This document shows positions 21,617-41,254 of a stretch of DNA of 42,130 nucleotides, one piece after another. Both the position numbers and the translations under genes were made by a program. Source of the stretch: Clostridia bacterium. Lineage in GTDB: Bacteria; Bacillota; Clostridia; Christensenellales; Borkfalkiaceae. The DNA lies in the NCBI GenBank assembly GCA_021202395.1, contig JAJQDC010000045.1:7887-50016 (forward strand). Reading direction: 5' to 3'. Position 1 is the first letter of the stretch, and each line of letters begins with the position of its first letter. The notes under the pieces were generated by a model. That model saw only the letters and a program-made list of their open reading frames with translations. It was not told where the DNA came from and did no database searches.

Positions 21617-21966
21617 ATTTTACTCCGATAATCTTTCAAGTGTTTATCAGTATATTTGTTGCTCTGTAAAGTTACTCTTAAAGTTGGAGATCTCTCCACT
21701 TCGGTCGAGATGACAGGCGGCGCTGCCGCCTGTACTTCTCAACGGCGGTAAGGGCAACCGCCGTTTCGGTCGCCGCAATCGCTTGCATTATGCGTTTGCT
21801 CATCTCACAACACAGCAACAGCGCACCGTGCTGTTGCAAGAACTGTGTTTGTTCGTCCCGCTGGGGCTGTCATTTCGAGCGGAGCCATAGGCGTAGTCGA
21901 GAAATCTCCCCACCATCCTGCGCTTTGCTACCAAAGCAACGATAGTTGCTTATGCTTATTACCGCA
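21617..21966. repeat. hslU-hisS gap: D-family palindrome split by element S
   Basis: Positions 21686-21734 are the left arm of a D element (GGAGATCTCTCCACTTCGG to GCCGCCTGTAC) and 21861-21909 its right arm (GGGGCTGTCATTTCGAG to GAGAAATCTCC). The intact D copy at 37384-37487 joins these directly; here the 123-bp element S sits between them. A hairpin AAAGCAACGATAGTTGCTT follows (about 21931-21949). Confidence 0.75.
21736..21858 (+). ncRNA. Structured element S, copy 1 (three hairpins)
   Basis: TTCTC, then stem 1 AACGGCGGT/ACCGCCGTT with loop AAGGGCA; TCGGTCGCC; stem 2 GCAATCGC/GCGTTTGC with a 9-nt loop (21783-21791); TCATCTC; stem 3 outer ACAACACAG/CTGTGTTTGT and inner CAACAGC/GCTGTTG with loop GCACCGT and a one-sided bulge CAAGAA; then TCGTCC. 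Copy 2 at 41108 has the same layout, with different stems and conserved single-stranded parts. No ORF is present. The plus strand is favoured by the purine-rich loops and by a G-U pair in copy 2. It matches no RNA family I know. Confidence 0.6.
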
Positions 21967-37182: not shown

Positions 37183-37572
37183 AATTGGTTTTTATGGGTG
37201 CAATATTTAAATTAAACGGCAGAAGCCTATAGTCATCTTGAGCGAAACGCAGTGAAGTCGAAAGACCTCGCGAGTACTCGCGCCCGAAAAGCAATACCGC
37301 CCATTCAATGCTTTTTACCGCATTATAATTAAGGTACTAATGATTGCAACCCACGTTGCACTGTACAAGTTACTATTACGGTTGGAGATCTCTCCACTAC
37401 GGTCGAGATGACAGGCGGCGGTGCCGCCTGTACAGCCCCACAGGCTGTCATTTCGAGCGGAGCCGTAGGCGCAGTCGAGAAATCTCCTAGCCTTCTACGC
37501 TCCGCTGCCGGTTGCAGATACTTACCACCGCATTATTAAAGTATATATACTTCCAGCATACTATGCGGGCAA
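37183..37572. repeat. Repeat mosaic between trmD and rimM, with an intact D element
   Basis: C fragment (about 37231-37275, GTCATCTTGAGCGAAACG), F segment (about 37286-37327, CGCCCATTCAATGCTTTTTA), a TGCAACCCACGTTGCA hairpin (37345-37360) and an intact D palindrome (37384-37487). No gene is supported. Confidence 0.72.
37384..37487. repeat. Intact D-family palindrome
   Basis: Left arm GGAGATCTCTCCACTACGG, GTCGAGATGACAGG; small hairpin GGCGGCGGTGCCGCC; GTACAGCCCCACAGGCTGTC; right arm ATTTCGAGCGGAGCCG and GTCGAGAAATCTCC. It is the uninterrupted reference for the copy at 21686-21909. Confidence 0.75.
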
Positions 37573-40953: not shown

Positions 40954-41013
40954 ATGGTTGGTTTATAGTAATGTAATAAAGTAATAAATAACAACAATTA
41001 CATAGTCCCGCTC

Positions 41014-41254
41014 TTGGCTCCCTTATTAGGGGAGCTGGCTGCGAAGCAGACTGAGGGGTTCACCTTATTATTAGTAACAAAACCCTTCCCCCACTTCGTG
41101 GTCCCCCTTCTCAAAGGCTGTAAGGACATCAGCCTTTTCGGGCACCGCAAGCACGTCGCATATGTGCTTGCTCATCTCGCCGCCATAAACAGCGCATTTG
41201 TGCTGTTTAAAGAAATGGCGGTTCGTCCTGATAAGGACGGCAAGACGTGGTAAG
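41014..41254. repeat. B-family repeat interrupted by element S
   Basis: CTTGGCTCCCTTATTAGG, CTGAGGGGTTCACCTTATT and CACTTCGTGGTCCCCC match intact B copies (6836, 30785). The expected TTCCCTTACAGGGACGGC is replaced by element S at 41108-41228, followed by TGATAAGGACGGCAAG. The remainder of 40954-41565 is AT-rich and holds two promoters; no gene is seen. Confidence 0.72.
41108..41228 (+). ncRNA. Structured element S, copy 2 (three hairpins)
   Basis: TTCTC; stem 1 AAAGGCTG/CAGCCTTT with loop TAAGGACAT; TCGGGCACC; stem 2 GCAAGCAC/GTGCTTGC with loop GTCGCATAT; TCATCTC; stem 3 outer GCCGCCAT/ATGGCGGT and inner AAACAGC/GCTGTTT with loop GCATTTGT and one-sided bulge AAAGAA; TCGTCC. Stems differ from copy 1 with pairing kept. 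TCATCTC, AAGAA, TCGG.C.CC and TCGTCC are the same. It lies antisense to the presumed ylxM leader. Confidence 0.6.

Follow-up and report, generated by a model that had tools for sequence, protein, structure and literature searches.

The window analysed here, a stretch of 42,130 nucleotides from a Clostridia bacterium of the family Borkfalkiaceae, contains two copies of what is likely to be a non-autonomous, mobile and modular three-hairpin DNA repeat, similar in kind to the REP and BOX elements but belonging to a new family. We call it element S. The initial annotation had placed its two copies at 21736-21858 and 41108-41228, and both are present there; comparison of the whole family sets the ends at 21737-21855 and 41109-41225. 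The copies, their hairpins and the repeats that surround them are the following:

21686..21909, no strand assigned: host palindromic repeat (REPIN-like) around copy 1, with arms 21686-21736 and 21856-21909
21737..21855, plus strand: element S copy 1, TCTC...TTCG, model match 115.4 bits
21741..21765, plus strand: hairpin H1 of copy 1, stem 21741-21748 with 21758-21765, loop TAAGGGCAA
21775..21799, plus strand: hairpin H2 of copy 1, stem 21775-21782 with 21792-21799
21807..21852, plus strand: hairpin H3 of copy 1, outer stem, inner stem and one-sided AAGAA bulge
21856-21858, plus strand: TCC after copy 1, largely conserved as well
37381..37487, plus strand: S-free counterpart of the host repeat of copy 1, 91% identity over the joined flanks
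41013..41244, no strand assigned: host palindromic repeat around copy 2, of the CTTGGCTCCC...GGACGGCAAG type, S-free counterpart at L014:600-687
41109..41225, plus strand: element S copy 2, TCTC...TTCG, model match 133.2 bits
41113..41137, plus strand: hairpin H1 of copy 2, stem 41113-41120 with 41130-41137
41147..41171, plus strand: hairpin H2 of copy 2, stem 41147-41154 with 41164-41171
41179..41222, plus strand: hairpin H3 of copy 2, outer stem, inner stem and AAGAA bulge
41226-41228, plus strand: TCC after copy 2, largely conserved as well

The general plan of the element, ~117-121 bp in length, is: TCTC – H1 (with an AAGG-rich loop) – TCGGKCACCG – H2 – CTCATCTCG – H3 (with its one-sided AAGAA bulge) – CTCG, mostly followed by TCCY. 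The unpaired linkers between the three hairpins are conserved and the stem sequences vary widely among the copies; in another genus of Borkfalkiaceae this plan is kept with changed linkers and a changed H1 loop. A single fold common to both window copies had been proposed at the outset, and RNA folding does return three hairpins in each (copy 1: z -3.0, with 2 of 200 shuffles folding as well; copy 2: z -6.0, with 0 of 200). The minus strands have z values of -2.0 for copy 1, equalled by 9 of 200 shuffles, and -3.5 for copy 2, equalled by none of 200. For a first alignment, 46 copies were read from stretches of the source genome and the window; 43 of them (40 distinct) were aligned, the other three being cut by a contig end (one) or chimaeric-looking (two). 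In this alignment 94.8% of the cells are paired under the named S structure, as against 25-44% when the partner is slid by 1-3 columns; both-sided changes occur at 21 of the 34 base pairs, and RNAalifold, unaided, arrives at nearly the same fold. The compensatory stem changes first noticed between the two window copies thus hold in a large alignment, with 186 double-change cells against a shuffled mean of 51, the stems differing in sequence and yet pairing in each copy. The original description of the first stem was borne out as a fold, except for the last pair beside the loop, which forms in only 11 of the 40 distinct copies. Neither strand could be chosen as the better folder, the plus strand being the more stable in 82 of 205 copies as RNA and in 96 of 205 as DNA.

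Element S is abundant in its source genome. The covariance model gives 95 matches in these 1.83 Mb, a figure for which 150 of 1132 first-look candidates were scored, partial copies were counted and one place matched on both strands; at ~120 bases per copy, S takes up about 0.6% of the genome. When copy 1 with its flanks was used as a DNA query against the same genome, 41 places were found. The further copies keeping the three stems that the initial annotation had looked to were found by the covariance model both here and in relatives: 30 of 61 relatives' genomes match (the source genome included), all 30 of them among the 37 of the genus, and the 24 genomes of other families in that search have no match. 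An order-wide search of 296 genomes found 13 with matches: 8 of the genus, 3 of other genera of the family and 2 of other families, one of the latter strong (G110, E 3.8e-15) and one weak. With stricter filtering and only a small number of candidates taken from each genome, these broad searches lose matches. The strong match outside the family is a single copy (L299:5223-5345), which could reflect either a horizontal transfer or a mis-binned contig. In public genomes a strict DNA pattern identified at least 104 stretches; among the 80 loci listed the titles name Clostridia or Clostridiales bacteria, with the exception of one Coproplasma and one Alphaproteobacteria, and the latter label may be a binning error. 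A phage origin was rejected, one strict pattern giving 0 stretches in viral contigs. Many of the copies are 90-94% alike, which suggests a recent spread.

The ends of the element are sharp. In up to 120 flank contexts, a few of which are chimaeric or array copies, the base composition shifts abruptly on either side of TCTC...CTCG; the boundary logo kept the 205 of 234 copies that start with TCTC or TCTT and have 40-base flanks, so that the left end is in part fixed by this filter. The strictest way of counting, in which contexts are linked by any shared flank, leaves 36 contexts, with 42 of the 234 copies dropped (12 for a short flank, 17 for another start and 13 for another end). Among these 36 there is no clear target duplication when direct flank repeats of at least 3 bases are compared with shuffles: the largest excess, of 3-base repeats at one offset (4 of 36 against 1.6), was equalled by 15 of 300 shuffles and was one of 45 tests. 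Nor are the two ends inverted repeats. The flanks themselves are rich in perfect hairpins of at least 5 pairs, found in 10 of the 36 right flanks and 11 of the 36 left flanks, as against 3.3 and 3.1, respectively, in letter-shuffled flanks. In the source genome, an S-free counterpart of the joined flanks exists for 64 of the 70 copies that have both flanks (7 of the 64 alignments were inspected), these counterparts being other copies of the host repeat rather than the same chromosomal site without S. From the flanks listed, and as judged by eye, S has palindromic repeats of several other kinds as its hosts and usually lies between an inner hairpin and the outer hairpin of an arm. This genome has several nested families of REPIN-like palindromic repeats, as seen in the window at 37381-37487 and 41013-41244. 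With its 95 matches, its up to 120 contexts with unrelated flanks and its 64 S-free counterparts out of 70, counts that are not independent because the copies within one genome are related, S has the general features of a mobile palindromic repeat.

Some copies of S lie inside or beside copies of tRNA and 5S rRNA genes. The right end of S abuts tRNA bases 27-1 or 26-1, in antisense, in 7 of 256 contexts (L184, L093, L206, L255, L251 twice and L185), involving tRNAs for Pro, Arg and Val; L317 is a weaker eighth case. At several of these loci an intact gene for the same tRNA lies close by. At L093 the left flank of S matches bases 51-30 of the same tRNA-Arg, which places the element inside an extra, broken copy of this tRNA, an intact tRNA-Arg being found nearby. 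Likewise, at L181 and L084 a 5S copy is interrupted by S near its 3' end. At E 1e-6, 12 of the 256 contexts have a tRNA or 5S match; at E 0.05 the number rises to 56, many of these matches probably arising by chance. Eleven of the 12 are antisense. The sense orientation of S is seen at L143, within a copy of tRNA-Leu, and at L226 (E 7.6e-6), within a copy of 5S, so its orientation to RNA genes is not fixed. Beside the element at L033:2139-2260 and L095:1501-1836, the 3' end of a 5S rRNA is joined by its own inverted copy to form a new hairpin; at L252, too, an inverted 5S copy lies beside S.

The three hairpins behave as modules. Among 69 copies of the source genome there are 37 different combinations of H1, H2 and H3 types, and two-by-two sets of types occur in all four combinations for H1/H2 (27 of 225), H2/H3 (7 of 225) and H1/H3 (4 of 225), which indicates that modules have been exchanged between copies. 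Entire elements can also be arrayed: L236 has three copies head-to-tail, L090 has two copies and a fragment, and extra modules are present at other loci. The copies of ~180 bases (L125-L129, L131, L132 and L014:831-1012) have a second small hairpin module between H1 and H2. This mobile-looking module of ~60 bases, TTGCGCAC...TTATCTGAAACCTTTTA...AAGGTGCGCAAAGTGTCGC..., seems in places to be split by yet another repeat, for example at L134:330-550.

Pairing that is maintained in RNA would be expected to leave a one-sided wobble signature, in which the transcribed strand shows many G-T and few A-C mispairs. In S, 223 distinct copies scored at 27 well-paired positions (7 of the 34 pairs being below 85% Watson-Crick and left out) give 5776 Watson-Crick pairs, 46 G-T and 75 A-C out of 5966; over all 34 pairs the totals are 195 G-T, of which a single pair beside the H3 loop accounts for 119, and 214 A-C. 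As a yardstick we have employed 34 distinct tRNAs of the same loci, whose 17 fixed positions have 527 Watson-Crick pairs, 45 G-T and 4 A-C out of 578, or 486, 19 and 3 out of 510 under the same 85% filter. A count restricted to the pairs drawn by ARAGORN gives 671, 57 and 0, the zero being partly by construction because only drawn pairs entered. The G-T share is thus about fivefold higher in tRNA than in S, and the large excess of G-T over A-C in tRNA has no equivalent in S, a comparison made with a small yardstick of tRNA alone and with S copies that are related to one another. The lack of one-sided wobble suggests that the pairing of S is probably kept as DNA, whether through selection acting on the folded single strand or through repair of one arm from the other; that such repair could produce perfect stems without any selection is a point against the preferred reading. 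With respect to H2, a frequent variant in the relatives' copies has a two-base mismatch of TC against TC (for example L162:1061-1180), and among 77 copies of the variant with CTCG on both arms there are 50 in which H2 folds more stably on the minus strand.

The orientation of the element relative to protein genes is mixed. Of the 234 copies, 94 lie between called genes, which are both on the minus strand in 37 cases, both on the plus strand in 25, convergent in 20 and divergent in 12; a further 111 are short of flank and 29 lie inside ORFs that were picked by length and are maybe spurious. Copy 1 lies beside hisS and an AAA ATPase gene and copy 2 beside a YlxM-like gene. Given these neighbours and the mixed orientation throughout the family, a cis-regulatory role was rejected. 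The initial annotation had read the covariation as that of an RNA under structural selection. That reading is not supported by the mispair counts, the mixed orientation to genes and the location of copies inside other repeats, and a DNA hairpin element explains the covariation of S better than a structured RNA does. Among the functions it had offered, part of a mobile element is supported, though as DNA.

We have searched for the enzyme that might mobilise such a repeat in four families. Of 61 genus genomes, 18 have a Y1 transposase match. The source genome has one IS200-like Y1 gene, and four S-rich draft genomes (G002, G006, G014 and G016) have no Y1 match; as Y1 genes do not track the numbers of S, a REP/RAYT identity was rejected. 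A retroelement was discarded as well: the source genome has no reverse transcriptase match, and such a match was found in 1 of the 10 S-richest genomes searched, as against 6 of the 9 that were poor in S or free of it. Neither IS110 nor TnpB tracks S, and both were set aside as mobilisers, there being no match above the cut-off in 19 draft genomes and one weak match below it for each (in G023 and G011).

How, then, does this DNA repeat spread? A putative trans-acting enzyme might recognise the folded single strand of S by its linkers, loops and shape, in which case the stem sequence would be free to drift as long as the arms stayed complementary, and insertion would favour TCCY-like sites at a hairpin's 5' foot; the negative outcome of the enzyme searches in the four families counts against this. 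In its most specific form, that of a multi-hairpin single-stranded DNA element inserting precisely at hairpin feet, including sites between the D stem and the anticodon stem of tRNA copies, and served by a mobiliser other than Y1, IS110, TnpB or reverse transcriptase, the proposal is a tentative one, possible though doubtful. It is perhaps rather unlikely, on the other hand, that S is copied with no transposase of its own, by template switching: a growing strand stalled at DNA hairpins would use short pyrimidine matches (CTC, TCC) to move to another hairpin-rich copy, copy S and return, with arm-to-arm templating keeping the stems perfect. The failure to find a candidate enzyme in the four families, the lack of a clear target duplication, the mosaic modules, the nested insertions, the inverted 5S copies beside S at L033, L095 and L252 and the hairpin-rich flanks would all be in keeping with such copying, but the two ends of S are fixed to ~1 base (the left one partly by the filter), which is sharper than microhomology switching predicts, and ~95 matches in one genome are many for an accident.

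A more familiar origin would be that of a relic of an IS200/IS605-like or REP/RAYT element whose Y1 transposase has since been lost from most genomes. Hairpins, insertion sites that adjoin hairpins, the absence of a clear target duplication and the one IS200-like Y1 gene of the source genome are all to be expected of such a relic; we nevertheless regard it as improbable, in view of the lack of correlation between Y1 genes and S numbers, the absence of a GTAG tag at the ends and the 90-94% likeness of many copies, which suggests a recent spread. Least probable of all is a structured RNA transcribed from the minus strand, for example a processing or stability element within transcripts. The conserved unpaired linkers would suit it, as would the fact that in 11 of the 12 tRNA/5S contexts at E 1e-6 the minus strand runs with the RNA gene. 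The slight excess of plus-strand A-C, equivalent to minus-strand G-T, over G-T (75 against 46) points the same way, and the H2 variant with CTCG on both arms, which would give a tandem G-A on the minus strand, is often the stabler there. However, G-T and A-C are both rare in S and favour no clear strand, whereas tRNAs under the same filter are plainly one-sided; S lies in sense at L143 and L226; and the orientation to protein genes is mixed, and the stability of the whole element, greater on the plus strand in 82 of 205 copies, favours neither strand.

The preferred reading of S as a mobile DNA hairpin repeat has a practical consequence: strong covariation at many stems in a genome scan need not mean RNA, as such repeats mimic the signal, and comparing the numbers of G-T and A-C mispairs offers an easy aid in distinguishing the two. 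No named RNA family had been suggested by the initial annotation, in agreement with the Rfam models, which give 0 matches in the window at gathering level. The best weak matches, near copy 1 (17.7 bits against a gathering threshold of 56, E 0.49) and near copy 2 (15.6 bits against 80, E 0.71), illustrate that lax thresholds give chance-level matches, and membership of an Rfam family was therefore rejected. Text searches of the open-licence literature yielded nothing recognisable as the S family.

Among the known repeats, the BOX elements of Streptococcus pneumoniae are described in PMC3049150 as short dispersed repeats of hairpin-forming modules, variable in module number and clustered with other repeat families. 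Element S resembles them in that its hairpin modules recombine and vary in number (37 combinations in 69 copies, with tandem copies and extra modules), but its three hairpins are joined by conserved linkers, it lacks inverted terminal repeats and its host group is another, a distinction drawn by description and not by models of boxA, boxB and boxC. With the REP and REPIN sequences, which are high-copy extragenic palindromes with variable stems and mosaic arrays according to the relevant passages of PMC3733652 and PMC6006769, it shares the high copy number, the variable stems and the mosaic arrays. REPs measure 20-40 bp in the same two accounts, carry a GTAG tag and are often accompanied by a RAYT gene; S, in contrast, is ~120 bp long with no GTAG at its ends and is independent in number of Y1 genes. 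In the other genus of the family GTAG does occur, within H1 at stem and loop. The CGTC-tagged palindromic repeats, including the RPE of Rickettsia, have a single stem of 8-9 bp and, according to PMC3733652, no known dedicated transposase. S has CGTC inside its terminal CTCGTCC, but at the 3' end only, and has three hairpins in ~120 bp. How such repeats spread without a linked transposase is a question that PMC3733652 leaves open for the CGTC-tagged group, and the S family adds a well-sampled example of a hairpin repeat spreading in the absence of the transposase genes commonly associated with repeats of this kind. Finally, MITEs are defined, in the wording of PMC3049150, by terminal inverted repeats and a target site duplication; like them S is short, non-autonomous, dispersed and strongly folded, but its ends, TCTC and CTCG, form no terminal inverted repeats and it makes no clear target duplication. 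By its tags, size, terminal repeats and the enzymes tested, element S is outside the REP/RAYT system, the CGTC repeats and the MITEs.
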